A DNA stretch of 37,647 nucleotides from Candidatus Gastranaerophilales bacterium (GTDB taxonomy: Bacteria > Cyanobacteriota > Vampirovibrionia > Gastranaerophilales > Gastranaerophilaceae), in contig CALVBB010000019.1 of NCBI GenBank assembly GCA_944325705.1, positions 1-37,647 of the forward strand, written 5' to 3'. The notes under the pieces are model-generated. The model saw nothing but the letters and a program-made list of their open reading frames with translations. It was not told the origin of the DNA and made no database searches. Made by a program: the position numbers and the translations under genes. This document shows positions 9,785 through 33,821 of the stretch, one piece after another. Position 1 is the first letter of the stretch; each line of letters begins with the position of its first letter.

Positions 9785-9799
9785 CTTTTTCCCTCCTGT

Positions 9800-9889: not shown

Positions 9890-9895
9890 TACTTT

Positions 9896-11208: not shown

Positions 11209-11220
11209 TTTTTCAATTAT

Positions 11221-11247
11221 ACTCCCGATAATTTTCCGGGAGTTTTT
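11221..11247 (+). terminator. Intergenic terminator or attenuator between the aminotransferase gene and serA
   Basis: ACTCCCG (11221-11227) pairs perfectly with CGGGAGT (11237-11243) around a nine-base loop, followed by five T residues. It should reduce read-through from the aminotransferase gene into serA, so the two may be expressed at different levels. Confidence 0.75.
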
Positions 11248-11277
11248 CAGAACAAGAATTAACAGGAAAGGTGCATA

Positions 11278-12873: not shown

Positions 12874-12889
12874 CAGAGGATAGATACAA

Positions 12890-13510: not shown

Positions 13511-13550
13511 CGGTTTAAAATAATAAAGCGGAATAAATGCTGGTTTACAC

Positions 13551-15122: not shown

Positions 15123-15673
15123 TCAGGTACAACAAGCGTTTTCATAACCCTGCAAGGAACACCGCAAGCAAGCGAATTTGGAGGAATATCTTTAGTAACA
15201 AGACTTCCTGCGCCGATAACGCTGTTATCGCCTATAGTAACCCCCGCAAGCACGGTGACATGCCCGCCAATCCAGACATTATTTCCAACCTTTACCGGCT
15301 TTGAATAGTTAATCCCGCAGCGGCGTAAATTAGCCTCTACCGGATGATTAAGAGTATAAAAAGAACAGTCCGGCCCGATTAACACATTATCCCCGAAAGT
15401 TACTTCATCCGCATCAAGGATTAGCAAATTATGGTTTGAATAAAAATTATCGCCTATTTTAATATTATAGCCGTAATCGCATATAAAAGGCTGCTCTATC
15501 AGAAAAGCACTTCCTATGCTGCCAAGAATTGTTTTTATCAAGGAGTGCCTTGCAGGCAGCATATCCGGAGATAGGTTATTATACTTATAACAAAGTTTTT
15601 TACATTTCACCCGTTCATAAAATAATGCCATATCCTGCCCGAGGTTAAACTGTCCTTTTTTAAAGCTTTTCAT
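15119..15673 (-). CDS. Hexapeptide-repeat O-acetyltransferase (maltose/galactoside acetyltransferase type)
   Basis: The 184-residue protein has the left-handed beta-helix pattern of the LacA/Maa/NodL family. YGYNIKIGDNFYSNHNLLIL is followed by FGDNVLIGPDCSFYTLNHPV, with the catalytic-type histidine in LNHP, then KVGNNVWIGGHVTVLAGVTI and GAGSLVTKDIPPNSLACGVP. It should transfer acetyl groups from acetyl-CoA to a sugar or similar hydroxyl. The start at 15673 gives the usual family length with its helical N-terminus, although no strong ribosome-binding site is seen. It converges with the TolC-type gene, overlapping by four bases. The 155 bases to the next gene hold no supported feature. Confidence 0.9.
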   Translation of the reverse strand: MKSFKKGQFNLGQDMALFYERVKCKKLCYKYNNLSPDMLPARHSLIKTILGSIGSAFLIEQPFICDYGYNIKIGDNFYSNHNLLILDADEVTFGDNVLIGPDCSFYTLNHPVEANLRRCGINYSKPVKVGNNVWIGGHVTVLAGVTIGDNSVIGAGSLVTKDIPPNSLACGVPCRVMKTLVVPD

Positions 15674-15828
15674 AACAAAAGCTTATACCGAACACCGAAA
15701 TAACACGTTAACAATGCAGTGATATACAGTTAAACAACTTTATCCTGATTAAAATTATAACCGTCAGCGCAAATCTATGATAAATAGAAAATTTGTTAAC
15801 ATAATGACCGTAAAATGTAATGTATATT

Positions 15829-17694
15829 CTATAACGACTTAATCTTAGCCGGATCTTTTTTGACCTTTTCTTTATTATCTTCTTTAGGGTGTCTGAGCTT
15901 CAGCAATGCGTCATAATCAGGAGTTAAGACTATATCAAAATGAAATCTTCCTGCATGCTGAACAGCTTCGTGTGAGTTTCTAATCATAGGGAAGCCCCAG
16001 TAAAGTCTTGCGGTTAAGTCCTTAGGCAGTGTAACTCTCAAGCCGAGCCCAATACCGAGCAGTACATCGTTTGAATCAATACCGGAAGCCCCCGGCCCTT
16101 CGCCTTTAAACGGGAATACCATGGCATGATCTACAAACGCCACCCCTTTAACATATTTACCCAAGAACGGGATTTCTTTTTTCTTGTCTTTAGATTTAAT
16201 AGCAGACGGTGCAATAGGGAACAAAAGTTCACCGCTTAACAAATAGCCGCTTCTGCCTATCAAAAGACCTTCCGAGTAGCCTCTGACAGAAGAAAGTCCC
16301 CCTGCCTGAAACTGATCAATATAAGGAACAACATCTTCTTTTGGAATAGCCTGATATGCACCTCTAAACTGACCTACAATTCCATGTCCGAAATCATGCA
16401 GTCTGATAAGTCCGCCTTCTAGTTTTACGTAATTTGAATTATTATCAAAAATCGGCATTGCATAAGACACATACTGGTTAGCATACCATATACCGCGTTT
16501 GGTGTCGTAACGCATGTTAAAACCGGTTCTGGCACTTGTAATTTTATCAGTGTATAAATCATAACCGTCAAAAGATGTGGTCGCCTGCTTATAATCAACG
16601 GAACTGAAACTTGATAATTCGAAATAAGGCTTTCTAATCAACGGTTGATTGAAGTAGAGTGAGTACACATAAGAGCGGCTGCGGATGTTGAACATTTTAT
16701 AATCCCCCTGAGCAATATGAGCATAGCTTGAGGAGAAGGAGAAGCCGACACGCCCGTCTTTTTTGTTAACAGGAATATTATAGTCCGCAAACGGAGTATT
16801 TGAGTGGCTGCTTACATAAGCACCTAAAGTCAGTTTGTCACGGTATCCGAACAAACTGTCATGCGTCAATGCAATACCGCCGCGGAGATTACCGATTGTG
16901 GATCTGCCGGCGTTATCAAAAATAAAGCTTGTATGGAACGGGAGTTTTTCTCTGGCAGCAAGTTCTATATCAGTTGTTCCCATTCTTTTTTCACCGGGTT
17001 TTAAGTTTGCGCTCAATTCAATCCCGGGAGTATATTTATTAAAATTCAAAACATCCTGTTCAAGTTCAACTATATCAAACAGTTTGTAAGGTTTGGCCGA
17101 AATTCTTTTCTTGATATAAGATTCTTTTGTCCATTTATTATCAACAACAGACACCTCGCCGACTTTGCCTTCAAAAAGGTCAATATACAAAGAACCGTCT
17201 ACAATATCCTGTTCAGGTACAAATGCCTTGGCTGTCACAAAACCTTTTTCAAGGTAGAGAGTATTTATACGGTTAATAATTTCTTTTACCTTATCAAAAG
17301 TGAGGTTTTCACCCTGATAATCACTAATAATATTTTCGATTTCTTCCTGTGTTAAAATCTCACTCGGGGCAACTCTGATTTTATCAATATAAACCCCTTT
17401 TGTAGCATATTCTTCGGCTCGCGCTTTTATAACATCTTTCTTTTTTTCTTTTTTTGATTTTACTTTATCAGGACTTTCTTTTTGTTCTTTCTGGCGTCTT
17501 TTTAAATCCTGCCAATCTTGCTCCTGTTCCTCGCGTCTTTGAAGATCTTTAAGCCTGTCCATGTCATGCACGTTCAAGTTTTGAACCCCGCCAACAGCAT
17601 CCATCGCTCCTGTTGGAATTTCACCGATAGCAAATGACGCATTATTCATGCAGGAACAGCATATTGCCAGTAATAAAATCTTTTTCCAATCCAT
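15829..17694 (-). CDS. TpsB two-partner secretion transporter (FhaC/ShlB/Omp85 family)
   Basis: This 621-residue outer-membrane protein should export the adhesin encoded divergently next to it. A signal peptide (WKKILLLAICCSC, cleaved near SFA) is followed by a strongly charged helical stretch at about residues 46-97 rich in Arg, Lys, Glu and Gln. Two POTRA regions come next, starting at VYIDKIRVAPSEIL and VGEVSVVDNKW. The last 370 residues form a beta-barrel with LSSVRGYSEGLL near residue 470, the conserved VRGY/F tip of the L6 loop in Omp85 proteins. The ATG at 17694 is preferred over an in-frame GTG at 17709. The charged stretch corresponds in position to the FhaC plug helix and linker but is longer and more charged than I would expect. 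Confidence 0.93.
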   Translation of the reverse strand: MDWKKILLLAICCSCMNNASFAIGEIPTGAMDAVGGVQNLNVHDMDRLKDLQRREEQEQDWQDLKRRQKEQKESPDKVKSKKEKKKDVIKARAEEYATKGVYIDKIRVAPSEILTQEEIENIISDYQGENLTFDKVKEIINRINTLYLEKGFVTAKAFVPEQDIVDGSLYIDLFEGKVGEVSVVDNKWTKESYIKKRISAKPYKLFDIVELEQDVLNFNKYTPGIELSANLKPGEKRMGTTDIELAAREKLPFHTSFIFDNAGRSTIGNLRGGIALTHDSLFGYRDKLTLGAYVSSHSNTPFADYNIPVNKKDGRVGFSFSSSYAHIAQGDYKMFNIRSRSYVYSLYFNQPLIRKPYFELSSFSSVDYKQATTSFDGYDLYTDKITSARTGFNMRYDTKRGIWYANQYVSYAMPIFDNNSNYVKLEGGLIRLHDFGHGIVGQFRGAYQAIPKEDVVPYIDQFQAGGLSSVRGYSEGLLIGRSGYLLSGELLFPIAPSAIKSKDKKKEIPFLGKYVKGVAFVDHAMVFPFKGEGPGASGIDSNDVLLGIGLGLRVTLPKDLTARLYWGFPMIRNSHEAVQHAGRFHFDIVLTPDYDALLKLRHPKEDNKEKVKKDPAKIKSL

Positions 17695-17751
17695 CTTAAA
17701 ATAAATCACCTTTTTTTCAGGATACTAAAGATATAAAAAATATGCACAGCT

Positions 17752-17777
17752 TGTAATATTATTTTACAAAACTGTAA
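17752..17777. promoter_or_regulatory. Candidate operator in the tpsB-tpsA divergent region
   Basis: Three alternating half-sites occur in 26 bases: TGTAA at 17752-17756, TTACA at 17764-17768 and TGTAA at 17773-17777. Neighbouring pairs form inverted repeats with spacers of seven and four bases. Their place between two divergent genes fits a shared regulator, but no regulator gene is adjacent and AT-richness makes chance occurrence possible. The tpsA start is preceded by AAGGGG. Confidence 0.3.
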
Positions 17778-17870
17778 CATAACTTTAGTTTTAGTAGAAA
17801 AATTTTTGTATTTTTGTACATGATTAAGAAAACTATCCAAATTCGATGATGATTAAGGGGAAAATTAAAT

Positions 17871-20800
17871 ATGAAAAAGGTTAAATCGTTTAAAAGATTT
17901 GTGACTAAAGCATTTTCTGTGTTTTTAGCATTGAGCTTTATAATGCAGCAATCGCTTCTGGTACCGGTTATTGCCAGTGAAATAACAGCGGCGCCTGACA
18001 GTAATATTGGAGCCGGTATAACACCGAATGGCAACATCTACGATATTACGCCGGGGCAAATTCACGGAAACACCGGATTTGCACACTTCGAAGATTTTAA
18101 CCTTTCTCAGGGCGATATTGCAAACCTTATCTATACAATGGGTTACGACAAATTTGTAAACCTTGTAAACAACGGAGTTAACATCAACGGTATCCTCAAT
18201 ACTATGATGAATAATAATTTCTACAACGGTCATGCCATATTCGTATCCCCGGGCGGAGTTGTAATCGGGGCATCCGGCGTTCTGAACGTTGGTTCACTTT
18301 CTTTAATTACCCCTTCTCAGAATTCCTATAACAATTTCATAAACAATATTGCGACAAGTCAGGATTTATCTGCATTGAAAGCTGATTCTCAGGGAAATAT
18401 TACCATCAACGGTAAGATTATTTCACGCGGAGATGTAGACCTTTACGGCAAAAATATTACAATTGCAAAAGCTGACGGGCAAAACACCGCAGCAGGAATT
18501 GTTGCCGGTGTTCAGGGACAGGATAACCTTGTATTTAACGGTGCAAACGGTGAAACAAATGATGCCATGCTTGCACGTGCTGAAACCCTTTTTAACCAGC
18601 TTGTTTCAAATGATATTACAGCAGGCAGCGGTTATGCGTTGAATAACGGGAAAGTTTCTATTGTTGCAAATGCCTCTAATACAGCTACATTCAACAGCGA
18701 TTCGGCAAATGAAGCTTCAAAAACAGATGCGGTAACGGCTTCCGTAAAAATTGAAAACGCTAAAATTGCCGGTTCAGAAGTAGAGATAAAGGCTACAGCC
18801 TCAGACAAACTTGAGGCATCCGCTGACAAAGTGGCGTCTGTAACATCTGACGCAATAACCGGTTATGACAAATATTTTAATATGTCGGATGACGGTGCTT
18901 ACGACGATTTCACAGGGGCAAGAGCACATGCCGTTATTGATATTATTAATTCCGAAATAAATTCATCCGGCAACGTAACAATTGCCTCAAACGCTTCTGC
19001 CGATACTGAAATTAATTCAGACGGCATAGCTGACGGCAAGGCTCTTGTTTTTGCCCTCGGAAATGAAACAAATTCTAAAGTAAATATCACAGGTTCAACA
19101 ATCAATGCAGGTGGAAATGTCACCGCAGCAGCAATTTCTAAAAACGTTTCCAACATAGAGATTTCGAACAAAAGTCTTGTTGAAGAAAAAGAAGAAGAAG
19201 CCAACGCCTATCAGCTTATGGCTTTAAACCACACCTCAAAGTCCGATACTCAGGTAGTAATCGATAACACTTCAACAATTAATGCAGAAAGCCTTGATGC
19301 AGGGGCTGTTAACAACACTCAAAACAGTGTAAAAATTGACAATTCCGTAAAATATCAGGCAGAAGGCGAAGATAAAGGCTCTGCTGCCGGAATTTCACTT
19401 TTAATTAAAAATGACAGAGTTAACACAAAAGCTTCTGTGAACGGAACTGTAAATACTACAGGCGATGTTAATGTTACGGCACAGAATTTACATGTTTCAG
19501 AAACCGAAGTATCAACATCCGGCAGTGAATACAAACCTGATGAAGATAGCGATGCAAACAAAAGCGAGGGAACTACCGATGAAGAATCCGGCGGTTTTAT
19601 AAGCAAAGTTCAGGGCATGCTCGGGTCACTCACAGGAAGCAGCGAAAACAAAGACAACCCGACAGAAACAGACAATTCTGCGCCTGCAGTTGAAATGTCC
19701 GGCGTTGTAAATCTTAATAAAAGTATCATTAACACAAGTGCAGAAATCGGAAATAGCGCCAATCTAAAAGCTGGGGGGGGGGTAGAAATCTCCTCGAACA
19801 CTGTGGACTATACGAAAAACAATGCCTCCGCAGAATCTACAGACGGCGCAAGATTTGCTCCGGGTGCGGCTGTTGTTGTTAATTTACAGACAAATAACAC
19901 AAATGCACTTATCGGTGAATATGCAAATGTTACAGCCGATGGGGATGTTAAAGTTAATGCAACAACAGAACTTCCAACAGATGAACTCGGAAGCCTCAAA
20001 CTTGACATAAAAGTCGGAGGAATAAGCATTAACGACGGATTCTCGGTTACGCCAAACTCTGACGGAAGCTGGGATTTCAGCAGGTTCCAGAATGATGATG
20101 ACACTGCAGGCAGCGAGGACAGCTATGCTGGAGTTGATCTTTCTGATACGGAATTCAACATTGACAAAAATATCCCGGAATATTCAGACATATTCAATAA
20201 CATTGCCTCTGCTAAAGCCGAAGGTGAAACTGCAGGCGCTTCAGGAGCTGTTGTATATAATACAATTACAAACAACACAACCGCTAAAATTTCAAATAAT
20301 GCTGAGGTTACCTCAAATAATGGCAGCGTACTTCTCAATGCTGTAAACTCTGTTGTCAGCTACAACGGCGCAGGGGATCTTACACAGTTGTTTAAAGATC
20401 AGACAACCGGCGGGAAAGCCGGCATCGGCGGTTCTGTCTTAATAAATGAATTTACAAATAATGCAGAAGCCCTTATCGGGAATAATGCAGTTGTAAATGC
20501 TGTTAACGGGGACGTAGGCCTGTATTCTGCCAATGAAGCCGCTTACCTTTCGGCTATAGGAACAGGTGCAAAATCAGATAAGTTTGCACTTGCTGGTTCA
20601 GTACTTGTTCATGATATTTCAGGGAATACTACTTCGCAAATCGGAAACAATGCAAAAGTCAGTGCTAAAAATGTCAATGTAAAAGCCGGCGAAGGTAAAA
20701 TTGCCGCAGTAAACGACAAATCAGACTTAACTGACGATAACAAAATTTCACTGGATACAGAAAGAAACGCTTCAGACAAAACTTCCATCATCAATATAGG

Positions 20801-23800
20801 AGGTTCATTATCCAAACAGAGTGAAACAACAGAGGGTGGCGGTTCTCAGGCATCCTCCGGAGGCGGTGTAGGTGCAACTGTAATTGTAAACAGTGTCAAC
20901 AAAAATGTGAATGCTAAAGTTCTGGATGGGGCAACCGTTACTGCCGCAGAAAATGCTTCTATTACGGCCGCTACCAAATCTCAGACTATGAATATCGGAT
21001 TTGCCGGAGCTTTTGCAGGCGGTGTTACTGTTGATAAATCTAAAGAAACCGGCGATAACCAATCCACAAATGGTTTTGGCGGATGGCAGGATAAAATTTC
21101 ATCTATTGTTGAAAAAATAAAGGGTAAAACTTCTGATACTGATGAAACTGTTGCAGATGCGTCAGGAAGTTCTGTTACTGATAACTTAAAGGATGAAGAT
21201 GTTCAAGGTTCATTGAACAGCACAAATGACCAGAACCAGACAGATAATAAAGACGGTGTGACAAGTACAACTTCACAGGGGCAGACGCTTGCAGGATCTG
21301 ATAAGCTTTCAACAACAGCAAAGGGCTCAACCGCATCAAACAATTTCTCTGCTGCGGCAGCTGGTGTTGTAACCGTTGAATCAAACGACACTGCGGTTGA
21401 GGCTTCTGTCGGAAACGGAACAATCAATGTCGGTAAAAATCTTGATGTAAAAGCTTCTCAAAATAATCAGACCCTGAATATAGCAACAGGTGTGTCTAAA
21501 GCCGGAAATCTCGGAGCCGGTGCAGCTGTAAACGTGTCATCGCGCGGCGGTTCAACTCATGCTCTTTTGAATGGTACAAACGTAAATTTCACCTCTGACG
21601 GCGATAAAAAATTAAATGTTGAAGCTAATGAAGATAACAATAATATAGATGTTGCGCTCGGGGTAGGAGCAGCATCAAATTCACAGAGCGGCACAAAAGC
21701 TGCTGTCGGCGGTTCATTCAATGCAACAGTGATTGATAACGATGTAAAAGCTTCCGTATCAAATGCAACAATTAAAAATGCGGAAGGGAAAACCGGAAAT
21801 GCTGAAGTTAATATAATTGCAAACAATTACTCAAAAGGCTACAAAGGTGCCGGCGGAGTTTCTTACACAAAAGGCTCCAATACAAATATAGGTGCCGGAA
21901 TTGCAGGTAATATCAATATTCTTGATAAATCAACAACAGCTGAAATCACAGGGGCAAACCTTGCCGGCGCGTCTGACGTAAACGTAAAAGCAAACAACCG
22001 CGGCGGAAAAACTGATGACATAATTTCATTCGGTGCAGCAGGTTCTGTAATTTCAGGCGGTTCTTCGTCTTATACTTTTGACGGCGCAATCGGGGTTGAT
22101 GTTATTACAAACACAATTACAGCTTCAATCAATAATTCAACTATTGATGCCGCAGGAGATATAAACGCTGCAGCATACTCGCAAATAAGAAATTCAAACA
22201 TTGCAGGAGCAGCACAATTCTCATCATCAACAAGCGGCTTAGGTGTCGGGCTTGGAACCGTTGTAAATGTTATTAATAATGCAGTAAAAGCTGAAATTGC
22301 TGAAAGTACAATTTCAAATTCAGCGTCTGTATCGCTAAATGCTGATGAAATTGAGGTTTTGAAATTCTTAGCTGTAAATATGGGACTTACTACAAGCGGT
22401 GCAAGTTCAGCTATGGCAAACGCCATTGTTAACGTTCTGAACAGCGATATTTACTCATACATTACCGGTGGCTCAATTACCTCCTCCGGTGCAGTATCAA
22501 ATATTGCAAACTACAAAAACGATATTCAGGGAATTACTGCCGTTGCAGGGCTTGCCCTTGGTAAAGGCAATACTCTTGGTGGAAACATCATTACTAATGT
22601 TTATACAAATGACACTCAATCAAAAGTTAATTCTACAGTTACTGCCGGCGGTAAGGTGAGTGCAAAAGCTCAGTCTTATGAAAATCTTAATATAATTCCG
22701 GCAGCGGCCACTATATCTACGGGTAAATTCGCGGCAGCGGCAAATGTCGCGGCAAACGTACTTACTAACAGCACACTTGCAGAAGCCGGCGGAAGAATAA
22801 CTTCAAATGGACTTGATGTAATCGCTTACGATAATTCCGATATGGTATCAAGAGGCGGAACTCTTGCAGGAAGTTCTAAAGTTGGTGTAGGCGGCTCTAT
22901 TGCTGTCGATGTACTTAATAAAACAGTAGGCGCAAAAATTAATGACGGCACAATTGTAAATTCAAAAAATGGGGCTGTTACAGTAAGCGCAACTGCACAA
23001 AACGCATCAGGCGGCAAAAAAGACGATAACGGAAACTATATAATAACAGATATTGCCGATATTGCAAAATTGATTGATGATAATAATGTCTCATCTCTTG
23101 ACGGCTGGCAGATGTCTTATGACCTTGCTGGCGGCGGAACAGCAGGTGTCAGCGGATCTATTATCACAAAGGTTATAAATAATAATGTGACAGCTTCAAT
23201 CGGCAATAATACAGAAATTATTGCAAGTGCGGTTGACGTTCTGGCAGATGATTATGTAATTATAAATGCAATTGTCGGAAGCTTAACCGCTGGCGGAACA
23301 GCAGCTGTCGGAGGTTCTGCATTCGTAAATGTTGTAACAGGTACAACTTCAGCGTCTATCGGCGATAATGCCGTTATAAAATCATCAGGTGATGTTATTG
23401 TAAACGCTGCAAATAAAGAAGTTATAAGAACTATTATGGTAATCGGAGGCGGCGCAGGTAATGTTGCTGTTAACGGTTCTGCTAATGTTAATACAGTTGT
23501 GAATACAACCTCAGCCTCAATAGGCGATAATGTAAAAATCAGCGGAATAAGTGAAAATTCAAAAGCCGGTGATGTAAAAGTTGTTGCAACAGAAACAGTT
23601 GATTCTCAATCTGATAATCTTGCAGTTTCAGGTTCAGGCACAGCATCTGTCGGCGGTGTTGCTTTTGTTAATACATTTGACAATAACGTAAACGCAAATG
23701 TGGGCAAAGAAACTTCCACAAACAAAACAAATATAAAAGCAAACAGTTTTGAAGTAAACGCTCGCTCGGAAGAATCTGTCGGCGCAATTACGGCTCTTGT

Positions 23801-26800
23801 GTCTGCTGCAGGTACTGCAGGTGTTGCAGGACTCGGAATTGTGAATGTTATAAATTCACACGTAAACGCATCTGTTGATAATGCTATTCTTGATGTGACC
23901 GGAAATATTGATGTAAAAGCTTCTCAGGATTACAATAAAACTAAATACGGGGATAAAGCGGGACTTTACACAACTTTACTCGGTTTAGATCCAGGCGCTT
24001 CTGATAAAATTGATATTTCTGGGTATACTCCTATAATTTCGGCACTTAACGTAACAGCAGCCGGAACAGCTGCTGTCAGCGGCTCGGCTGTTGTTAATAC
24101 TATAATAAACGATGTTAACGCAAACGTTAAAAATTCCGTTATAGAAAATTCAAGTAATGTAAATATTCTTGCCACCTCGGATACAGTGACTTATGACGCT
24201 GTCGGAAGCGTTGCAGCCTCCGGTACTGCGGCAGTTTCAGGAACAGCACTTGTAAATGTCGTAAGGGGCGATACAAACGCTTTACTTGATAATACAACAG
24301 TTAAAAACGGTAATGTATCTATTAAAGCTCAGGATACAAATACCCTTAACGGAATTTTAGGCGGGATTACTGCATCAGGTATAGCTGCAGCTACAGGCTA
24401 TGTTAATGAAAACAGTACAGTAAATACCACAAGTGCTAAAATTACAAATTCAACAATCGGCAGTGAAGATAAGCGTACAGGTGATGTTGACGTGGAAGCT
24501 TCAAGCACAAATAATATCGCCTCAATGAGTGCTTCTGTCGGTGTTGCAGGAACAGGCGCAAACGTTCAGGGACTTGCTATCACAAACCAGAATTCCGCAA
24601 ACACAGAAGCCAAAATTGAAAACTCAAATATTACAGCAGAATCTTTAGATGTTGCCGCAAAAAATACATTTAATGTATTTGACTTAATTGCGGCAGCAGG
24701 CGTTTCCGGAGTCGGAGGCCAGGTTGGCGGAAATGTTATTTCAAATGTGGTTAATAATGACTTAACCGCAGCTATTACCGGTACACAGAATAACATTATT
24801 GATATAACCGGGACATCCAATGTTAACTCTGAATCTTCCATAACAATGGGGAATGCGCTTGCATCTGCCGGAATTTCCGGTGCCGGTGCAGCTATCGGAT
24901 TGGCAGTAATCGCAAACATTATGGACAACGATATTCTTTCATACATCGACGGAGTAACTATCAACGGCGGCACTTGGAAGGTTAATGCACAGCAGATTGA
25001 TAAAATGACAGGCGGGCTTGCCGGTGCAAACTTTGGCGGGCTTAGTGTAGGTGCAAACGCAAACGGGGTTACCAATGTTATTCAAGATAGAACAAAGGCT
25101 TATATTGATAATGCTGTTCTTAATGAGGTAACATCACTCACGGTTAACGCAAAATCTGACCAGACGCTTGATTTCAATGCACTCTCAGTTGCAATCTCAG
25201 GGCTTGCAGGGGTAAATGTGTCCGCACTTGTTAACACTGTTAAAAATGAACTCTATGCAGGGGTTTCAGATTCAACAGTTTCAAGCAGCGGGGATGTTAA
25301 AGTTACAACAGATCAGGATACAACAGTTAAGGCAGTTTACGCTAACGTATCAGCAGGCGGTGCTGCTGCAGGAACAGGTTCTATCGTTAATGTTCTGACA
25401 AACAAAAACACAGCAGAAATCAATACTACAGAAGTTGCAAAAAGTTCATCGATTACCGTTGATGCAGAGAATAAAACTGCTGTTACTTCTGATAACTATA
25501 CAGCAGCAGGCGGCGGCTTTGCAGGCGGATTGTCAGTTAACGTAAATGTTATAGAAAATGAAGTTAAAGCACAGATAAATAACAGCGGTAAAGAAATTTC
25601 GACAAACGGAGTATTAAAAGTCAACGCTTATGAAGATTTTGATTTAACTGCACGTGCCGGTGTTATGACAGGAGGAGGGGTTTCTGCAGCTGGTTCTTCA
25701 AATGTAAATATCATAAATAATGCAGTGCTTGCGGGAATCTATTCCACTAGTGCCGTAAACGTGGGATCTCTGGATGTTGATGCTGTATCAGATTTAAATT
25801 TAGATATATTAACAGCCTCAGCTTCTGCAGGACTGTATGGAATGGCAGGTTCTGTTGCCGTTACCTCAATAGGTTCTAAATTCTCAGACAGTGAAACAGG
25901 AGATTATCTTGTTGCAGATAATGGTTCAAACGCTGTTGTTCAAACTCAAGATACTGCAAATTCTACAATCCAAGGGAACGATTCTGTATTAAACAATCTT
26001 GAAATTATTGATAAAAACGGGAATAAAGTAAGTGCCGGCTATAATTCAGATTCAGTTGAACTTGCAGGAACTGGTTCAAAAGGCGGAACTTCCGCAAATG
26101 TAAATGCAAACGTAACTTCAAACGGGACAGTTGAGGTTAACGCTTCAAACAATCTTCAATTCAATAAAACAAATGCAAATGCTTCAATCGGCGGCGCCGG
26201 TGCTCTTGCTGCAAATGTTCTTGTTACAAATATGAACTATAAAACTAACGCTTCACTGGGCGGTAATGTTGCTGCCGGAAGCAATAAAGTTTCAGTTAAA
26301 GCTTCAAATAATATTAATGCTAATACAAGTGCCAATCAGGCATCTTTAAGCGGCGTGTCCGTCGGCGGAAATGTTGCATATTTCAGAAACAATGCGCAGA
26401 CTACCGCTCAAATCAACGGCGGGAAAGTTCAGGCAGGTAATATTGATGTAATTGCTGAATCAACAGATAATATTTCCGCAAAAGCATTCGGTGCCGGAAT
26501 TTCCGGAGCAAGCGTGAATGCTGTTGTTGCGGATGTAAAAACAACTAACAATACAAAAGCTCTTGTGACCGGAACTGTTGATATAGATGCAGATAATATG
26601 AACGTAAATGCAAATAATACAAGCTCTTTAAATTCTGAAATGCAGGCATATCAGGCATCAGGTATTTCAGTCGGAATTCTTGTAAATTCTGCTGTTTCCA
26701 ACGCCGTAACCAATGCGATAATAGATGCCTCAGGCGATATTGCATTAAATAACGACTTAAATATAGTAGCTGCTACAAACGGTATAACTACGGGTACTAC

Positions 26801-29800
26801 AATGTATCTCGGATCATTAACCGCAATCGGCGTCAGCGGCAGCGAGCAAAATTCCGAAGCCTCTGCCCGATTCGGAGCTTCCATTAATAATTCAAATCTT
26901 ACTATTTCTAAAGCTGGTAATATTAGTGTGCTTTCAGGGGTTAATACCGATAATAACGCTCTTGCAGGTTCAATAACCGCGGAAGTATTCTCAAAAGAAG
27001 CACAGGCAGGATTTGTTACTATTTCATCAACAACACAGAATGCAACAGTAAATACAAATTCTGAGGTAAATGTTAACGCTCAAAATATTAAAGCAGATAA
27101 CCTGAAACTTGCATCAAACCTTAATAAAACAGCAAAAACCGGTTCTACACGTGGTACTATAGGTGCTGTTTCAGTCGATACACTTAACTTAAATTCAACA
27201 GTCGGCGGAACTTCATCTATCACACTCGCCGGCGGAAGCGAAATTGCAAATGCTATTTCTATTGAAATGAACGATACTTCAAATGCTCATAATGAAATGG
27301 TTAGTGCAAATCTATCAATTGTTGGAGCTTCTGTTAATAAATCAAATGCAAAAGTTAATTCAAATTCATCTGTAAATCTTGACGGAAATATTTCCGCTGA
27401 CAGCGTGAATGTTTCCTCAAATGTAAACAGAAACGCATATTCTACAATGAATGCAAAAAGCGGAGGACTGGTTACTGTCGGAACATATAATATTTTAACC
27501 GAAACAACAGGTAGTTCAGGTATTAATACTCCCGGCAAAGTAGGGGTTAAAAACAACTTCGACATTACATCCAAAGCAGTGAATCAGACAGAAACTTATT
27601 TGAGTGAAAATTCAGCAGCCCTTGCCGCAATTGCGAAAGGCAGTGCTAAAAACAACATTAACACTTCAAATAATATATCTGTCAATAACGCTGAATTAAA
27701 ATCAGAAAATGGCAATGTAAATCTGAAAGTTGACAGCAGCAACCTCATTGCTATGGAAAAAACCTCAAACTCAGCCGGATTTACAACAATTAACGGCGGA
27801 ACTTTGAGTAACAATATTAAATACAATGACAACAGCGAAGCAATTGAAATATCAGATTCAACCATCAATGCTAACAACATAAAAATTGAATCTGACGTAG
27901 ATTTTGGCTCACTGGGACTTATAGAATATGATGACGGGGCATCAGGGTTTGCAACAGAAGCCGGTGCTACTATCAACAACACAATTACGCAAAATAACAA
28001 AATAAAAATAAATAATTCTAAACTACAGGCTGCAAACAGACTGGATATTAGACAAAATACAGACAGTGAGTTCCACCAGTTTGTTCAAACAGACCATTCA
28101 GGTTTTGTAAACAGAAACAGAGCATACTCATATCTGACAGTAAACAATAACAACACTCTTGATATTCTTGGAGCAAACTCTATTCTTTCCGGTGATTATG
28201 TAACAATAGCACAGGATTCTTCAAATGATTTAAGTTCGGAAACTGATACTGAAGCAAACCACTTCGGCGGTCGGGATCCTATGTCTAAATCTTATCTGGA
28301 TTTAACTATAAATAATGCTATTACTCTTGAAGGAGAGATTAAGGGCGGGGAAGCTGTTCAGATTGACTTTATGAAAAATTCAGACAATAAGCTTGTCCAG
28401 AAAGCTGATTTATACATTGAAGCAGCCGTTGCAACAGGAGAGGCTGACGGACATCTTAACTACACAACAAACAACGCACTCAACGTAAAATCGGGTGCTA
28501 AAATATCATCAGGCAGAGATGTTCTGGTGAACTACTCCAACGGCAACAACAACCTGACTTCGGAAATCAACTCCAAAAAAATCAGCAGATTGTTGTTCGG
28601 TATTCCTATCACCAAAACCAGCAAAAGTTCAAATATTAACCAGCAAATAAATAACTCTCTTGCATTAGACGGAGAGGTTACTGCCGGTGAAAATTACAAC
28701 AAATACATGCTGATCGACGAAAACGGTAATGTTAATGAAGCAACACTTGAAGGTTTCATCAAAAATCAGGACTATCAGATTGTTGAAGGCGGAACTATTG
28801 ACGGTGCAGAGTTAACAGAGGATGCAATAGATGAAATCAAGAACCAGATTGAGTATCTAACAGAGCAGAAAGATCGTCTTGAAACAACTGAACAAACCAA
28901 CAAAGAACAGCTTGCTTTATATGAAACACAGCTTGAACAGCTTCAGGGTATCCTTGATGACCTAAATAACAATACAGATACAATCACATCTGCTGATGTT
29001 GCAGCACAATCCAAAAATAATATCCAAAGTACAGTTGTCGGGGATGGAGAAAATCAGATTTCACAGGAAAAATTTGATGAAGTCTACAGCAAATTAACCG
29101 ATGCAGATCTTACTGATGAAGAAATAAATAACTATTTACAAAATGAATCCGGCCTCACAGATGCTCAGATTACGCTGTTGAACAATGCAATCGACACAGA
29201 AAGTGCTAAGATGACAACTACTACTATCGGTGGAGTTGAAACCTCTGTATATGACGGTAAACTGGTATTTGATGCAGAAGATCAGACATTTATAAATCAG
29301 GTTCAAGCCAGCTACGACAGTATAAATACCGCATATTCAGATTTAAACAAAATAAACGAAAGCATTTCCAAAAATGTTTCTGATATAGACAGCAAAATAT
29401 CTTCCCTTAATGAGCAGATAGACTATCTTACTCAAAACCCGCTCCCTAGCATAACTACAGATAAAGCCTCCATAAAATTTGAAAACATTGCGGCAGAACC
29501 TTCAAAAATCGAGTTGAACGGAATTTTGAGAGAAGATATTACCGGAAACGGACAGTTCAAGATTTTTGGCTCAAGTGTCTTTATCGAAAATTATTCTGAT
29601 TATGATCTAATATTCAATAACATAGCGCTCAGCTACGGGAATACAGGCTTTATTGTAAACGGAGAAAATCTTGATAAACTTGCTGTTACCGGAGAAAAAG
29701 TCAACGATAACGTTAGTCTTGTAAAAGAATACGGCAACGATAAGATTAAAGATTCCATTACAATAAACAACTACCATGACAGTAAAAATCCGCTTATCTC

Positions 29801-32800
29801 AAATGCGATAAATTCAAACATAATCTTTAACGGTGTCATAACCAACGCAAACGGAGGGTTCAATGTATTAAACGAAAGCGGAGATATTACATTCAAAAAC
29901 CTTATCAACGCGGGCTCAACAGATATTGTTGCGGCGCAGGGGAATGTTACATTCGATGTTCCGGCAGGAGAGCTTACACTGAATGAAGGCGACCGGATAC
30001 TTGCCGGCAAAAATGTTACCGTAAATGCAAACTCTATTGTCAATAACGGTAAAGTTCAGGCAGGTTACGGAGATAGAAACATTACAATTACAGATGATAT
30101 GTTAACGCATTTCGTCAAAGACTCTGCCGGAAATGACACAGAAGTTATTGACCTTCAGGGTACTGATGTTTCGGATTACCTGAGCGAAAACAACAATATC
30201 AAAATTCTCTACACTGATGCAGACGGCGATGGAATAAAAGAAATCGTAGTGTTTAACACTTCAACCGAAGGCGGAAATGTAACCTTTAACGGTACAGTTT
30301 CCGGCGAAGGCGAAGTCAGATACACAGACGGTTACAGCAATATTACAATTACAAATAATACTGATAACAAACTTGTTGTAAATAACCTTGCAAACAACAG
30401 AATGGACGGCAGTTACACAATTAACGGAACCATTCAACAAGAAAGCGACAAGGTTATTAATCAGGGACATGATTTTGCAAACACAACAATCACTTCAAAC
30501 GGCACTGTTGATGTCAAAGGCCTGATTGAAAATGCCAAAGGCAAAAAAGAGGAGGACAGCACAGGTTTATTGAATATTACATCGCAAAACGGTGTAAATA
30601 TTCTGAACAAACTTGATGAAAAAGGTGTTCAGACTGCAACAATTGACGCGCTCGGCAATACAACAATTAAAAACGAAACCGCAGGCGGTATTGTTGTCGA
30701 AGGCTTGATGCAGACAGAAGGCACCTCAAACCTTACAAATGATGCAGAAGGCGGTATAACAATTAAAGATACCGGTATTGTATCCAACACTAACGGCGGA
30801 GAACTTAACATTACAAATAACGCCGGAGATTTGACAATAACTGAAAAAGGACAGGTTATTGCAGACGGCACAAGCGGCATTATAAATGTTAAAAATACAG
30901 AAAATGCCGGTAAATTCTCTATTGCAGGATTGATTAAACATTCCGGTAAAGGAGATGTAAACGTTACAGCCCAGAGTGCCTCAGGACTTGATATTACCTC
31001 AACCGGTAAGGTTGCGGCAACAGAGGGTAATATTAAGATTACTAATGAAAAGGCAAAACTTAATATTGAAGGTACTGTTGAAAATGCTAAAGGAACAACA
31101 GACATCACAAATAATGGCGATGGAGGCTTATTAATTGCCGAAAGCGGACTTGTAACAAACAAAAACGGCACCAATAACATTACAAACAATAACGGCAGTG
31201 CTACAATTTCAGGTACTGTACATAATGATAACGGTGCTAACGTATTAACAAATAACAGTCAGGATGGAATGACAGTAACATCTACAGGTCTTGTTAACAA
31301 CAACAATGGCACCACAACAGTTTCCAACACTGCAGGCAAATTGACTGTTGAAAATGGCGGTCAGATTGTAAATAACAACGGAGAGACTACAGTTACAAAC
31401 AGCGGTGACGGCGGCATGGAAATTGCCGGGTTAATCAACAACAAAAGCGGTGCTACAAAAGTTGAAAACACCAATGCAGTCTTGAAGGTTACAGAAACCG
31501 GGAAAATTCAAAACGACAACGGCGAACTTGAAGTTAAAAACACAGGCGCCGGTGGTATGGATATAGACGGAAAAGTCGTAACAACAAATGCAAGCAATAT
31601 AACACTTACAAGCAGCGGGACTGATATAGTAATCGGTCACGACAATACAGATAATAATGTTCAGTCTGGCGGAAGCATTACAATAAACCAGACAGACGGG
31701 GATGTTCTAAATTACGGCGGGAACAACAGCACTGATAAGACAATGCTCGCAGCATCTTCTAACCTTATTATGAACGTTATCGACGGAAATATCGGGGCAA
31801 CTGGTGATTCAAACCCTGGTTTCAGCGTTAACGCGCCGACTAGAAACTACACAGAAACACTTAATATTAATATAGGCGGATCTGTTACTGCAAACGCAAT
31901 TAACAGTGAAGCTAATCCTGACGGTGTCAGATTAGTCAACCTGAGAAGCAAAGATTCTGATATGAAGGTTAACCACATAAAAGCCGACGGCAATGTAATC
32001 CTTACAGCCGCTGACTGGAGACAGCCTGATCAGAACCCGACACCTGATAATGAAGAGTATTTCAGAGGCTATTCAATTACCAATGCTGCAACAGACGGCG
32101 GCGCAAATATTGAAGGGCAGAATATTTCTGTTATTTCCAGCAATGAAATAGGCGGTGAAAAGGCATTAACATACAAACAGAGGACTGATGTAAATCCTGA
32201 TTCTTGGGTAAGTTTTGAAGCTGAAAATGATATTAAGCTAGAAAATGTTAAATCTGATAACCCTACAAACATCTGGCAGCTTATATCAAAACGCGGCTCA
32301 ATTGATTTTACTCTCGGCTCGGAAGCAACAATCAACGAGATTACGTCAGGAAATCACCTGCACCTGTTAAGCAAGGCAAAAGATTTAACAATCTATAATA
32401 TTGGAAAGACCACAAGCTTTGAAGATCCGATGGATGATCTGCTTTATCCGCATGATTTAATCAGTCTTGGAAGCGGTGAAGATAGCGTTGTACCTCAAAC
32501 CGTTGCAATTGAGGTTCTCGACCTTAACGGCGGTGCCGATGCAAATTCCACACTGAGAATTTATAACGCCTATGTCCGCGGAGCAAACAACGGACAAGGT
32601 GCATACGAAACCTATCTTGACCAGACATTCCAGAAAGCCGATGTTTCACTGATGGCTGATAACGTCTACGCTAATGCTTATGAAGCTGCAGCCTCAGATG
32701 TAAGCACAGTTCATCACCCTGACGGATTTGATCCAAAAGAGAACGGTTCTTACGAAATTGACGGAGAAACACACTATGCAACAGGCTTTAATACAGTCGG

Positions 32801-33770
32801 AGAAGGAGTAAAACTTTCATTTGATATTGAAGGCGTTAACAAAGACTATGTTGCACAGGTAAACGGCGGCGATACCTCAACAAGAGATTATCAGGAAAGA
32901 CCAACGTCTGATACTATTGAAATTTTCAATAATAAATATCAAATACCGGGTGACAATGTTTATCTTGCAAATGATGTAACACTTTCTCTGAATTCAGGAG
33001 AAGGAACTGCCGAAACAGGCAATAATCGAGGTATGAATATCAACAAAATCTACGCAAACGATGCTTACGTTGATACAAAAGACCTCAACCTTACCATCAG
33101 AGATGCTATTATAAATAACTATGCCGAATTCAGAAACGGCAACAGAGATGGAGAAGGCAACTACGGCAGTGATTACGATTACAGATGGCTGGCGGTTGTC
33201 GATAATGATTTCCGCAGGCTGGTTGATTCTACCGTACAGATGTACACTCAAAAAACCGGCTCATTCGGGCTTGATATGGGCAATCTTGTAGTTCTTAAAA
33301 CTCAGGCTCCTATTGTCCATTACAATCCTTACGAGGTTGCAAACCTCTTCAGAAATGAAAACAGCTTCTACAGACTGACATATAAAGACGACAAAATCCA
33401 GTATAATACAACAACACCTGACTTTAAGGATATAGATAAAGCTACTTACAAGGCAACAAAACGTGTATCTATGAGATTCCCGACAAAAGGTCAGGAGATT
33501 CAATCTGATGTTCCTATTTATGATATTTCTAAAACAGGTGCTCTGATTGACAACAAAAAGAAAAAATTAAAAGTCGGAGAACGCGCACAGGTAAAAATTA
33601 TCTATGAAGATATGGTAATAGATGTTGAAGTTGAAGTTGTCCGCCTCACAGATGATGAACTGGCAGGGGTCAAATTTATAAACCTCAGCAAGGCAACAGC
33701 GAACAAAATTCTTTACCTGAACCTGCGCAGAGCAAATTCAATGAAAGAAAGTTATACAAGCCAGTTATAA
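17871..33770 (+). CDS. Giant TpsA filamentous adhesin, LktA-like, with C-terminal PilZ-like domain
   Basis: The 5299-residue exported adhesin is secreted by the neighbouring TpsB. An extended signal peptide covers residues 1-36 (basic start, then FSVFLALSFIMQQSLLVPVI). The TPS/haemagglutination domain at about 40-200 has FVNLVNNGVNINGIL and AIFVSPGGVVIGASGVLNVG. From about 250 to 3640 it is an Asn/Ala/Gly/Ser-rich beta-helical shaft with repeating units such as GTAAVSGSAVVNT and NVNAN, as in LktA-family adhesins. Residues 3645-3855 are a charged helical insert (EQKDRLETT, LALYETQLEQLQGILDDLN). Short tandem repeats fill 4230-4573. A non-repetitive region leads to a PilZ-like domain at 5197-5290. 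I noticed no cysteine on reading through. A G10 tract at codons 635-638 suggests phase variation. AAGGGG precedes the ATG. Confidence 0.95.
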   Translation: MKKVKSFKRFVTKAFSVFLALSFIMQQSLLVPVIASEITAAPDSNIGAGITPNGNIYDITPGQIHGNTGFAHFEDFNLSQGDIANLIYTMGYDKFVNLVNNGVNINGILNTMMNNNFYNGHAIFVSPGGVVIGASGVLNVGSLSLITPSQNSYNNFINNIATSQDLSALKADSQGNITINGKIISRGDVDLYGKNITIAKADGQNTAAGIVAGVQGQDNLVFNGANGETNDAMLARAETLFNQLVSNDITAGSGYALNNGKVSIVANASNTATFNSDSANEASKTDAVTASVKIENAKIAGSEVEIKATASDKLEASADKVASVTSDAITGYDKYFNMSDDGAYDDFTGARAHAVIDIINSEINSSGNVTIASNASADTEINSDGIADGKALVFALGNETNSKVNITGSTINAGGNVTAAAISKNVSNIEISNKSLVEEKEEEANAYQLMALNHTSKSDTQVVIDNTSTINAESLDAGAVNNTQNSVKIDNSVKYQAEGEDKGSAAGISLLIKNDRVNTKASVNGTVNTTGDVNVTAQNLHVSETEVSTSGSEYKPDEDSDANKSEGTTDEESGGFISKVQGMLGSLTGSSENKDNPTETDNSAPAVEMSGVVNLNKSIINTSAEIGNSANLKAGGGVEISSNTVDYTKNNASAESTDGARFAPGAAVVVNLQTNNTNALIGEYANVTADGDVKVNATTELPTDELGSLKLDIKVGGISINDGFSVTPNSDGSWDFSRFQNDDDTAGSEDSYAGVDLSDTEFNIDKNIPEYSDIFNNIASAKAEGETAGASGAVVYNTITNNTTAKISNNAEVTSNNGSVLLNAVNSVVSYNGAGDLTQLFKDQTTGGKAGIGGSVLINEFTNNAEALIGNNAVVNAVNGDVGLYSANEAAYLSAIGTGAKSDKFALAGSVLVHDISGNTTSQIGNNAKVSAKNVNVKAGEGKIAAVNDKSDLTDDNKISLDTERNASDKTSIINIGGSLSKQSETTEGGGSQASSGGGVGATVIVNSVNKNVNAKVLDGATVTAAENASITAATKSQTMNIGFAGAFAGGVTVDKSKETGDNQSTNGFGGWQDKISSIVEKIKGKTSDTDETVADASGSSVTDNLKDEDVQGSLNSTNDQNQTDNKDGVTSTTSQGQTLAGSDKLSTTAKGSTASNNFSAAAAGVVTVESNDTAVEASVGNGTINVGKNLDVKASQNNQTLNIATGVSKAGNLGAGAAVNVSSRGGSTHALLNGTNVNFTSDGDKKLNVEANEDNNNIDVALGVGAASNSQSGTKAAVGGSFNATVIDNDVKASVSNATIKNAEGKTGNAEVNIIANNYSKGYKGAGGVSYTKGSNTNIGAGIAGNINILDKSTTAEITGANLAGASDVNVKANNRGGKTDDIISFGAAGSVISGGSSSYTFDGAIGVDVITNTITASINNSTIDAAGDINAAAYSQIRNSNIAGAAQFSSSTSGLGVGLGTVVNVINNAVKAEIAESTISNSASVSLNADEIEVLKFLAVNMGLTTSGASSAMANAIVNVLNSDIYSYITGGSITSSGAVSNIANYKNDIQGITAVAGLALGKGNTLGGNIITNVYTNDTQSKVNSTVTAGGKVSAKAQSYENLNIIPAAATISTGKFAAAANVAANVLTNSTLAEAGGRITSNGLDVIAYDNSDMVSRGGTLAGSSKVGVGGSIAVDVLNKTVGAKINDGTIVNSKNGAVTVSATAQNASGGKKDDNGNYIITDIADIAKLIDDNNVSSLDGWQMSYDLAGGGTAGVSGSIITKVINNNVTASIGNNTEIIASAVDVLADDYVIINAIVGSLTAGGTAAVGGSAFVNVVTGTTSASIGDNAVIKSSGDVIVNAANKEVIRTIMVIGGGAGNVAVNGSANVNTVVNTTSASIGDNVKISGISENSKAGDVKVVATETVDSQSDNLAVSGSGTASVGGVAFVNTFDNNVNANVGKETSTNKTNIKANSFEVNARSEESVGAITALVSAAGTAGVAGLGIVNVINSHVNASVDNAILDVTGNIDVKASQDYNKTKYGDKAGLYTTLLGLDPGASDKIDISGYTPIISALNVTAAGTAAVSGSAVVNTIINDVNANVKNSVIENSSNVNILATSDTVTYDAVGSVAASGTAAVSGTALVNVVRGDTNALLDNTTVKNGNVSIKAQDTNTLNGILGGITASGIAAATGYVNENSTVNTTSAKITNSTIGSEDKRTGDVDVEASSTNNIASMSASVGVAGTGANVQGLAITNQNSANTEAKIENSNITAESLDVAAKNTFNVFDLIAAAGVSGVGGQVGGNVISNVVNNDLTAAITGTQNNIIDITGTSNVNSESSITMGNALASAGISGAGAAIGLAVIANIMDNDILSYIDGVTINGGTWKVNAQQIDKMTGGLAGANFGGLSVGANANGVTNVIQDRTKAYIDNAVLNEVTSLTVNAKSDQTLDFNALSVAISGLAGVNVSALVNTVKNELYAGVSDSTVSSSGDVKVTTDQDTTVKAVYANVSAGGAAAGTGSIVNVLTNKNTAEINTTEVAKSSSITVDAENKTAVTSDNYTAAGGGFAGGLSVNVNVIENEVKAQINNSGKEISTNGVLKVNAYEDFDLTARAGVMTGGGVSAAGSSNVNIINNAVLAGIYSTSAVNVGSLDVDAVSDLNLDILTASASAGLYGMAGSVAVTSIGSKFSDSETGDYLVADNGSNAVVQTQDTANSTIQGNDSVLNNLEIIDKNGNKVSAGYNSDSVELAGTGSKGGTSANVNANVTSNGTVEVNASNNLQFNKTNANASIGGAGALAANVLVTNMNYKTNASLGGNVAAGSNKVSVKASNNINANTSANQASLSGVSVGGNVAYFRNNAQTTAQINGGKVQAGNIDVIAESTDNISAKAFGAGISGASVNAVVADVKTTNNTKALVTGTVDIDADNMNVNANNTSSLNSEMQAYQASGISVGILVNSAVSNAVTNAIIDASGDIALNNDLNIVAATNGITTGTTMYLGSLTAIGVSGSEQNSEASARFGASINNSNLTISKAGNISVLSGVNTDNNALAGSITAEVFSKEAQAGFVTISSTTQNATVNTNSEVNVNAQNIKADNLKLASNLNKTAKTGSTRGTIGAVSVDTLNLNSTVGGTSSITLAGGSEIANAISIEMNDTSNAHNEMVSANLSIVGASVNKSNAKVNSNSSVNLDGNISADSVNVSSNVNRNAYSTMNAKSGGLVTVGTYNILTETTGSSGINTPGKVGVKNNFDITSKAVNQTETYLSENSAALAAIAKGSAKNNINTSNNISVNNAELKSENGNVNLKVDSSNLIAMEKTSNSAGFTTINGGTLSNNIKYNDNSEAIEISDSTINANNIKIESDVDFGSLGLIEYDDGASGFATEAGATINNTITQNNKIKINNSKLQAANRLDIRQNTDSEFHQFVQTDHSGFVNRNRAYSYLTVNNNNTLDILGANSILSGDYVTIAQDSSNDLSSETDTEANHFGGRDPMSKSYLDLTINNAITLEGEIKGGEAVQIDFMKNSDNKLVQKADLYIEAAVATGEADGHLNYTTNNALNVKSGAKISSGRDVLVNYSNGNNNLTSEINSKKISRLLFGIPITKTSKSSNINQQINNSLALDGEVTAGENYNKYMLIDENGNVNEATLEGFIKNQDYQIVEGGTIDGAELTEDAIDEIKNQIEYLTEQKDRLETTEQTNKEQLALYETQLEQLQGILDDLNNNTDTITSADVAAQSKNNIQSTVVGDGENQISQEKFDEVYSKLTDADLTDEEINNYLQNESGLTDAQITLLNNAIDTESAKMTTTTIGGVETSVYDGKLVFDAEDQTFINQVQASYDSINTAYSDLNKINESISKNVSDIDSKISSLNEQIDYLTQNPLPSITTDKASIKFENIAAEPSKIELNGILREDITGNGQFKIFGSSVFIENYSDYDLIFNNIALSYGNTGFIVNGENLDKLAVTGEKVNDNVSLVKEYGNDKIKDSITINNYHDSKNPLISNAINSNIIFNGVITNANGGFNVLNESGDITFKNLINAGSTDIVAAQGNVTFDVPAGELTLNEGDRILAGKNVTVNANSIVNNGKVQAGYGDRNITITDDMLTHFVKDSAGNDTEVIDLQGTDVSDYLSENNNIKILYTDADGDGIKEIVVFNTSTEGGNVTFNGTVSGEGEVRYTDGYSNITITNNTDNKLVVNNLANNRMDGSYTINGTIQQESDKVINQGHDFANTTITSNGTVDVKGLIENAKGKKEEDSTGLLNITSQNGVNILNKLDEKGVQTATIDALGNTTIKNETAGGIVVEGLMQTEGTSNLTNDAEGGITIKDTGIVSNTNGGELNITNNAGDLTITEKGQVIADGTSGIINVKNTENAGKFSIAGLIKHSGKGDVNVTAQSASGLDITSTGKVAATEGNIKITNEKAKLNIEGTVENAKGTTDITNNGDGGLLIAESGLVTNKNGTNNITNNNGSATISGTVHNDNGANVLTNNSQDGMTVTSTGLVNNNNGTTTVSNTAGKLTVENGGQIVNNNGETTVTNSGDGGMEIAGLINNKSGATKVENTNAVLKVTETGKIQNDNGELEVKNTGAGGMDIDGKVVTTNASNITLTSSGTDIVIGHDNTDNNVQSGGSITINQTDGDVLNYGGNNSTDKTMLAASSNLIMNVIDGNIGATGDSNPGFSVNAPTRNYTETLNINIGGSVTANAINSEANPDGVRLVNLRSKDSDMKVNHIKADGNVILTAADWRQPDQNPTPDNEEYFRGYSITNAATDGGANIEGQNISVISSNEIGGEKALTYKQRTDVNPDSWVSFEAENDIKLENVKSDNPTNIWQLISKRGSIDFTLGSEATINEITSGNHLHLLSKAKDLTIYNIGKTTSFEDPMDDLLYPHDLISLGSGEDSVVPQTVAIEVLDLNGGADANSTLRIYNAYVRGANNGQGAYETYLDQTFQKADVSLMADNVYANAYEAAASDVSTVHHPDGFDPKENGSYEIDGETHYATGFNTVGEGVKLSFDIEGVNKDYVAQVNGGDTSTRDYQERPTSDTIEIFNNKYQIPGDNVYLANDVTLSLNSGEGTAETGNNRGMNINKIYANDAYVDTKDLNLTIRDAIINNYAEFRNGNRDGEGNYGSDYDYRWLAVVDNDFRRLVDSTVQMYTQKTGSFGLDMGNLVVLKTQAPIVHYNPYEVANLFRNENSFYRLTYKDDKIQYNTTTPDFKDIDKATYKATKRVSMRFPTKGQEIQSDVPIYDISKTGALIDNKKKKLKVGERAQVKIIYEDMVIDVEVEVVRLTDDELAGVKFINLSKATANKILYLNLRRANSMKESYTSQL
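19773..19782 (+). repeat. G10 homopolymer inside tpsA (candidate phase-variation tract)
   Basis: Ten consecutive G residues encode Gly635-637 and the first base of Val638. With nine G the next codon is TAG at once. With eleven the frame ends at a TAA about 100 bases on. Only ten (or plus/minus three) keeps the 5299-residue frame open, the classical layout of a slipped-strand contingency locus. Confidence 0.8.
28803..29435 (+). other. Encoded helical/coiled-coil insert of the adhesin (residues about 3645-3855)
   Basis: Here the beta-strand-rich, glycine/asparagine pattern gives way to about 210 residues rich in Glu, Gln, Lys, Leu and Asp. Heptad-like stretches include IDEIKNQIEYLTEQKDRLE, YETQLEQLQGILDDL and ISSLNEQIDYLTQNP. 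It is a domain boundary within one open frame, not a separate gene. Confidence 0.7.
30560..31590 (+). repeat. Block of short degenerate tandem repeats in tpsA (residues about 4230-4573)
   Basis: Roughly 20-25-residue units recur with the pattern TNITNN-x-G-x-L-x-I-x-x-x-G-x-V-x-N-x-NG, for example DITNNGDGGLLIAESGLVTN and TVTNSGDGGMEIAGLINN. The units are too diverged at DNA level for perfect repeats but would stack as successive beta-helix coils. Confidence 0.65.
33459..33740 (+). other. Encoded PilZ-like domain at the adhesin C-terminus
   Basis: Residues 5197-5290 match the PilZ pattern. RVSMR at 5198-5202 gives the RxxxR c-di-GMP motif, and DISKTG at 5218-5223 gives DxSxxG. A strand-rich stretch (KVGERAQVKIIYEDMVIDVE) follows, then LAGVKFINLSKATANKILYL, which resembles the usual GVxFxxLsxxxxxxL end of PilZ domains. 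The two motifs are 15 residues apart, the normal spacing. Confidence 0.8.
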
Positions 33771-33776: not shown

Positions 33777-33821
33777 AAACAAAAAGAGTCGTTTTTACAT
33801 AAAAAAACGGCTCTTTTTGTT
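33777..33821. terminator. Bidirectional terminator between tpsA and the ybaK-type gene
   Basis: A 20-base near-perfect inverted repeat pairs 33777-33796 with 33802-33821, with one wobble and a five-base loop. A-rich and T-rich flanks provide U-tracts on both strands. It begins seven bases after the tpsA stop and touches the stop codon of the converging gene, so it should end both transcripts. Confidence 0.88.

Follow-up and report, generated by a model that had tools for sequence, protein, structure and literature searches.

Why should an adhesin that leaves the cell end in a domain of a type that works inside it? The question is raised by tpsA, a gene in the window (the whole stretch of DNA analyzed here, 37,647 nucleotides of contig CALVBB010000019.1 from a Candidatus Gastranaerophilales bacterium). 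tpsA occupies positions 17871-33770 of the forward strand as a single uninterrupted open reading frame (ORF) and encodes a 5299-amino-acid (aa) two-partner-secretion (TPS) adhesin of the LktA family with a PilZ domain at its end. Alg44, YcgR, PP4397 and other PilZ receptors of cyclic di-GMP (c-di-GMP) work in the cytoplasm, and we know of no c-di-GMP-binding PilZ receptor that forms the tail of an exported protein. The answer that we tentatively favor, from comparison of sequences, is that the terminal PilZ domain may serve as a c-di-GMP-responsive module of adhesin retention whose ligand would be bound in the cytoplasm.

The last ~110 residues of TpsA matched Pfam PilZ (PF07238; E 6.4e-9, 36.5 bits against a cut-off of 22.5) with a core at 33504-33710, and a PilZ profile built from relatives, in which the window tail is one of the 24 rows, placed the domain at 33426-33761 (+) with E 7e-37. 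Both halves of the predicted c-di-GMP site reported in the initial annotation were present: RVSMR, the RxxxR half, at 33462-33476 (+; residues 5198-5202) and DISKTG, the D/NxSxxG half, at 33522-33539 (+; residues 5218-5223). AlphaFold2 (AF2), run on an alignment of 79 tails, gave a PilZ barrel with pLDDT ~94 over model residues ~90-180. When this model was compared with solved structures using Foldseek and VIA-align 2, PilZ domains were the top matches, many of them with c-di-GMP bound; they included Alg44 (4xrn, 4rt0, 4rt1), YcgR (5y6f), PP4397 (3kyf) and MotI (5vx6), with VIA Z of 11-12 for MotI, Alg44 and YcgR. In addition, a profile of small exported relatives (described below) brought the two ligand motifs into line with those of c-di-GMP-bound Alg44. 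Judged from the profiles and the model, the TpsA tail is a genuine PilZ domain of the predicted c-di-GMP-binding type, as had been proposed, and it has its fold and ligand motifs in common with Alg44, YcgR, PP4397 and other c-di-GMP-binding receptors. Misassembly or a frameshift was ruled out as the origin of the fusion, because tens of assemblies, independent of one another, share this architecture.

The predicted c-di-GMP site is under strong conservation and selection. Arg, Arg, Asp/Asn, Ser and Gly were all kept in 65 of 72 tails that had been sampled by profile and not by motif. Overall, 152 of 161 distinct domains kept all five residues; many loci in the larger set came from a motif-based scan, so the 72 tails are the fair sample. 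The tails are often just 30-40% identical to that of the window and nonetheless keep the ligand residues, and the ratio of nonsynonymous to synonymous substitutions (dN/dS) over PilZ was 0.03-0.18 where synonymous sites were unsaturated. The arginine pair was lost in the remaining seven tails (loci L048, L053, L069 of genome G142, L090, L099, L107 and L136), and loss of RxxxR was read by eye at L049. Tails without RxxxR keep the domain, the serine and the glycine, and those at L069, L048, L049, L053, L099 and L136 are natural negative controls for a role of the ligand. Lost c-di-GMP synthesis was ruled out as the cause, since all 146 genomes of the family encode several GGDEF domains each.

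We searched Gastranaerophilales for other TpsA proteins that end in PilZ and found them widely; the single case initially described had understated the architecture. Within the same family, 84 of 146 genomes (26 of 41 genera) had relatives of the C-terminal 189 aa. In the DNA around these matches, long ORFs with their start in view had a signal peptide and TPS domain first and PilZ last. The LktA-family proteins of this kind ranged from 859 to more than 6200 aa, often with several in one genome. The NCBIfam model of LktA-family filamentous adhesins (NF012204) has the same TPS domain; it covers the N-terminus only, and its description has no PilZ tail. Across the order the PilZ-tail profile matched 126 of 192 genomes at E 1e-8, and across the phylum (386 genomes, 142 genera) all matches, among those listed, lay within this order. 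In two genomes of another family, f3, ORFs truncated by the contig end (L131, L132) have PilZ after beta-helix-like repeats. The genomes were mostly metagenome-assembled genomes (MAGs), with thin sampling of the other families of the order.

A scan of 84,980 species, one genome each, returned 195 relatives, of which 80 were kept; it used a narrower alignment, so that the resulting loci are biased toward the ligand motif. Informative titles among these 80 of 195 were mostly Candidatus Gastranaerophilales or Melainabacteria MAGs, and the few others (Brachyspira, Muribaculaceae, Clostridiaceae and Fusobacterium CAG:439) are probably mislabelled bins. Standalone PilZ genes were considered as the source of short matches and rejected, since the majority of the short ORFs with PilZ proved to be pieces of TpsA truncated where a contig ends. 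In open-licence literature, a body that takes in few subscription papers and hardly any preprints, no fusion of TpsA with PilZ came to light under PilZ combined with two-partner secretion, TpsA, filamentous hemagglutinin or Melainabacteria, in agreement with the initial annotation.

The region before PilZ has a property of its own. A low-complexity stalk (a stretch of at least 30 residues, and up to 559) stood directly before the domain in 61 of 80 complete PilZ-tailed TpsA proteins and in 0 of 16 complete PilZ-less ones (Fisher p 6e-9, uncorrected for kinship). Its repeats vary (DTDT, ADAD/SD, PTEPPTEP, PEPE, GPGP, DTTPTG), and therefore it is the property that is kept and not the sequence. 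With a stalk ahead of it, PilZ has the look of an anchor. The staphylococcal SD-repeat adhesins ClfA and SdrC have adhesin, acidic SD-type stalk and cell anchor in the same order, although these are unrelated proteins with an LPXTG anchor instead of PilZ, and the likeness is one of composition alone. The second PilZ-tailed TpsA of the window's genome (1566 aa, contig G000:C7, L034 7124-11821) has ~500 residues of (D-A/S-D-A) repeats in its C-terminal third, resembling staphylococcal SD-repeat stalks in composition; this stalk scored on the NCBIfam models of such repeats, below their cut-offs. A Cys-hook was ruled out as the anchor: all 5299 residues of the window TpsA were scanned and hold 0 cysteines, and 0 of 90 relatives have two cysteines in the last 200 residues, which extends the original remark on the window protein.

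PilZ was also found on a second kind of exported protein. In thirteen distinct small proteins (~150-240 aa), a hydrophobic signal at the N-terminus (read by eye) is followed by a linker with little predicted order and then by PilZ. PF07238 matched 13 of 13. In the alignment of these 13 proteins, which are 19-51% identical to the first, Arg, Arg, Ser and Gly are invariant (two of them were shifted in a larger alignment). AF2 and Foldseek, applied to one of them, gave the same fold and the same c-di-GMP-bound neighbors as the tail. Small proteins with intact motifs are encoded at L061 1970-2485, L133 961-1611, L135 5301-5993, L104 5255-5782, L134 3918-4427, L129 7092-7643 and L130 7772-8311; the one at L134 has a lipobox-like LSAC. 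For nine of the 13 genes, a PilZ-tailed TpsA gene ends 42-189 bp upstream on the same strand. Two genomes of f7, a further family of the order, have the gene divergent from that of a TpsB (L129 5279-7039; ShlB 4e-18), the position that tpsA holds in the window; there the TPS profile found no TpsA, and NF012204 gave only weak matches elsewhere in the genomes. In two genomes of genus g9 the gene stands apart from TPS genes. The nine genes beside PilZ-tailed TpsA and the two divergent from TpsB mark exported PilZ, as read from gene order, as a recurring module linked to two-partner secretion.

The window's genome has six GGDEF matches and three PilZ matches, and no EAL domain was found in it. L074 and L075 encode soluble-looking GGEEF cyclases, L076 a GGEEF protein with a C-terminal domain that reads as HD-GYP-like, and L078 a degenerate GGDEF with a clear HD-GYP motif (HHEHIDGSGYP). 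It is probable that c-di-GMP is made and degraded in the cytosol. A periplasmic cyclase was considered as a ligand source and rejected, as the genome's own GGDEF proteins, read by eye, show no signal peptide. Separately, L001 1471-2061 (contig G000:C10) encodes a YcgR-like 196-aa PilZ protein that has RRRYTR and DISAGG, lacks a signal peptide and is a possible cytosolic c-di-GMP receptor.

Adhesin retention at high c-di-GMP has precedents. In the CdrA/CdrB and LapG/LapD system of Pseudomonas aeruginosa, and likewise for LapA, a large adhesin, as the window TpsA is, is kept on the cell at high c-di-GMP; CdrA is also a TpsA, and it is freed by LapG when c-di-GMP is low (PMC5422565). There, a separate inner-membrane protein, LapD, reads c-di-GMP and controls the periplasmic LapG, and a C-terminal Cys-hook retains the adhesin, whereas the window TpsA has the c-di-GMP-type domain inside the adhesin and a Cys-hook is impossible. 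ExlA of P. aeruginosa stays in the membrane and TpsB at high c-di-GMP and is freed when c-di-GMP is lowered, by a route called indirect (PMC8472254). ExlA/ExlB is a case of a TpsA stuck in its TpsB in a c-di-GMP-dependent manner, but no PilZ is described in ExlA. The retention output at high c-di-GMP is therefore known biology, and a receptor within the adhesin is new. In FhaB/FhaC of Bordetella a C-terminal part halts secretion and stays inside the outer membrane, as we propose for the PilZ tail; this prodomain is ~1200 aa, periplasmic and protease-controlled (PMC8263021), and unlike the window TpsA, FhaB has no PilZ. In HxuA and HMW1 a short C-terminal plug, a disulfide-closed loop (PMC5422565), locks TpsA in TpsB, whereas the window tail is a ~100-aa barrel without cysteine.

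On the retention reading, the TPS domain would pass first through Sec and TpsB, the beta-helix and stalk would follow, and PilZ would come last. c-di-GMP would be bound in the cytoplasm, before or during Sec passage; this is the simplest place because the genome's c-di-GMP enzymes look cytosolic. With ligand bound, PilZ would be folded, locked and unable to follow the chain, and the adhesin would be tethered to the cell. Without ligand PilZ would be weaker, the chain would be completed and the adhesin released. Retention would account for the terminal position and the stalk, and ligand gating for the conserved site. In the version put forward in the initial annotation the block is at SecYEG with PilZ in the cytoplasm, which would need a ligand-stabilized fold that resists SecA; ligand-bound dihydrofolate reductase (DHFR) fusions are known in principle to resist translocation as stabilized folds. 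It is from the PilZ fold, the conserved site, the terminal position, the stalk association and the genetic tie to TpsA and TpsB that we infer binding, the dependence of folding on ligand, retention and the compartment.

Several points weigh against cytoplasmic gating. A lasting stall would occupy SecYEG translocons and be costly. The tails of FhaB and of HxuA and HMW1 are held in the periplasm and not in the cytoplasm (PMC8263021, PMC5422565). Thirteen small proteins with a signal peptide and an intact site suggest that PilZ may act after export, beyond the inner membrane. Since seven of 72 tails lack RxxxR and still have the domain, some role of the tail may not need the ligand. Finally, proteins of the long type (~5000-6000 aa, the window protein among them) have a conserved segment in place of the low-complexity stalk. 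The initial proposal of a PilZ-gated adhesin stands in part: the domain type, the conserved site, the end position (often after a stalk) and the presence of c-di-GMP enzymes agree with it, and it is complicated by the small exported proteins, the periplasmic site of known TpsA tails and the tails without arginines.

One alternative is that the chain crosses Sec completely. PilZ would then fold in the periplasm and block the pore of TpsB, either by itself or in a pair with TpsB or a small exported PilZ protein; its ligand site would serve in that pairing or take up c-di-GMP, or a nucleotide like it, on the far side of the inner membrane. The positions of the small PilZ genes, nine just downstream of PilZ-tailed TpsA and two divergent from a TpsB as tpsA is, the invariance of their ligand residues at 19-51% identity and the periplasmic tails of FhaB, HxuA and HMW1 are consistent with this. 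However, no periplasmic source of c-di-GMP was found among the genome's cytosolic-looking GGDEF proteins, and the small partner was absent from the loci read in most genomes with PilZ-tailed TpsA; we regard such a lock as possible but rather doubtful. If the compact barrel simply cannot pass TpsB, the ligand motif could be a relic or serve stability, and the seven tails that lost the arginine pair and kept the fold, Ser and Gly would fit. Known PilZ receptors bind their ligand through RxxxR, though, and a relic is disfavored because this segment is kept in 65 of 72 tails and 13 of 13 small exported proteins across deep divergence; a purely structural plug is thus unlikely. It could also be speculated that the secreted PilZ is an outside sensor or sponge for c-di-GMP that neighbors or lysed cells set free in the gut, given that PilZ occurs on exported adhesins and on the small exported proteins, but the last-exported, post-stalk position is that of an anchor and the tie to TpsB argues the same way, so that this is very improbable. 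Least credible is a free cytoplasmic PilZ that the 3' end of tpsA would yield through internal initiation or cleavage, leaving the exported chain without PilZ. It has no direct support, the 13 small proteins give PilZ its own signal peptide, and Met is missing from the 60 residues ahead of RxxxR in 73 of 140 tails; internal initiation was rejected on this last count, there being no general start site.

Returning to the retention reading, an intact PilZ site on exported adhesins points to direct control, by a signal from inside the cell, of whether the adhesin remains attached. If true, an intracellular second messenger would act directly on a secreted adhesin, with neither proteases nor a relay of the LapD/LapG type in between, and TpsA retention would have a third form in addition to prodomains and Cys-hooks. 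It would offer a handle on how the signal reaches a pore-held TpsA, a question raised by ExlA, and would concern a main surface system of a common, poorly understood gut lineage. We consider it possible, if short of probable, that exported proteins of this order have acquired c-di-GMP receptor domains, that a receptor in the adhesin tail lets an internal signal gate export and surface retention with no envelope relay, and that the small exported PilZ proteins are a wider class at or beyond the inner membrane. These small proteins raise the question of whether a c-di-GMP receptor can work outside the cytoplasm.

A third TpsA of the window's genome (1180 aa, L080 3186-6725, contig G000:C21) has no PilZ; it and TpsA-like proteins of ~1180 aa at L113 and L084 end in beta-helix-like repeats without stalk or PilZ. 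In genome G102 a gene for such a PilZ-less TpsA lies ~8 kb from one for a long PilZ-tailed TpsA, and because both gene types share one contig there, G000:C21 may adjoin the window contig. Locus L137 (G177:C16) carries four tandem PilZ-tailed TpsA genes at 2020-18822 (1188, 1709, 1214 and 1299 aa) with differing stalk repeats (DTDT, GPGP/KPDP and GPGPEP).

In the window, tpsB (15829-17709, -) encodes a ShlB/FhaC-type outer-membrane transporter with POTRA_2 (ShlB 4.5e-22, POTRA_2 2.3e-17) and is the divergent neighbor of tpsA, as expected of a cognate TpsB. The TpsA N-terminus (MKKVKSFKRF...VIA/S) resembles a Sec signal peptide by eye; this putative peptide spans 17871-17975 (+) and is probably cleaved after VIA (residue 35). 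The TPS domain at 18039-18470 (+) was recognized by NCBIfam NF012204 (leukotoxin LktA family filamentous adhesin; E 6e-43 over the N-terminal 500 aa), while Pfam gave no TPS family at E<=1 over this stretch. LktA is here the name of the family domain and implies no toxin role for the window TpsA. A repetitive, Asn/Ser/Thr/Gly-rich, beta-helix-like passenger, its extent estimated from composition, would span 18471-33200 (+). It is followed at 33201-33425 (+) by the conserved segment that precedes PilZ in the long type (..NENSFYRLTYKDDKIQ..TTTP..), which has low AF2 confidence and no low-complexity stalk. Directly 3' of the tpsA stop, an inverted repeat read by eye at 33780-33818, AAAAAGAGTCGTTTTT...AAAAAACGGCTCTTTTTG, is likely an intrinsic terminator.

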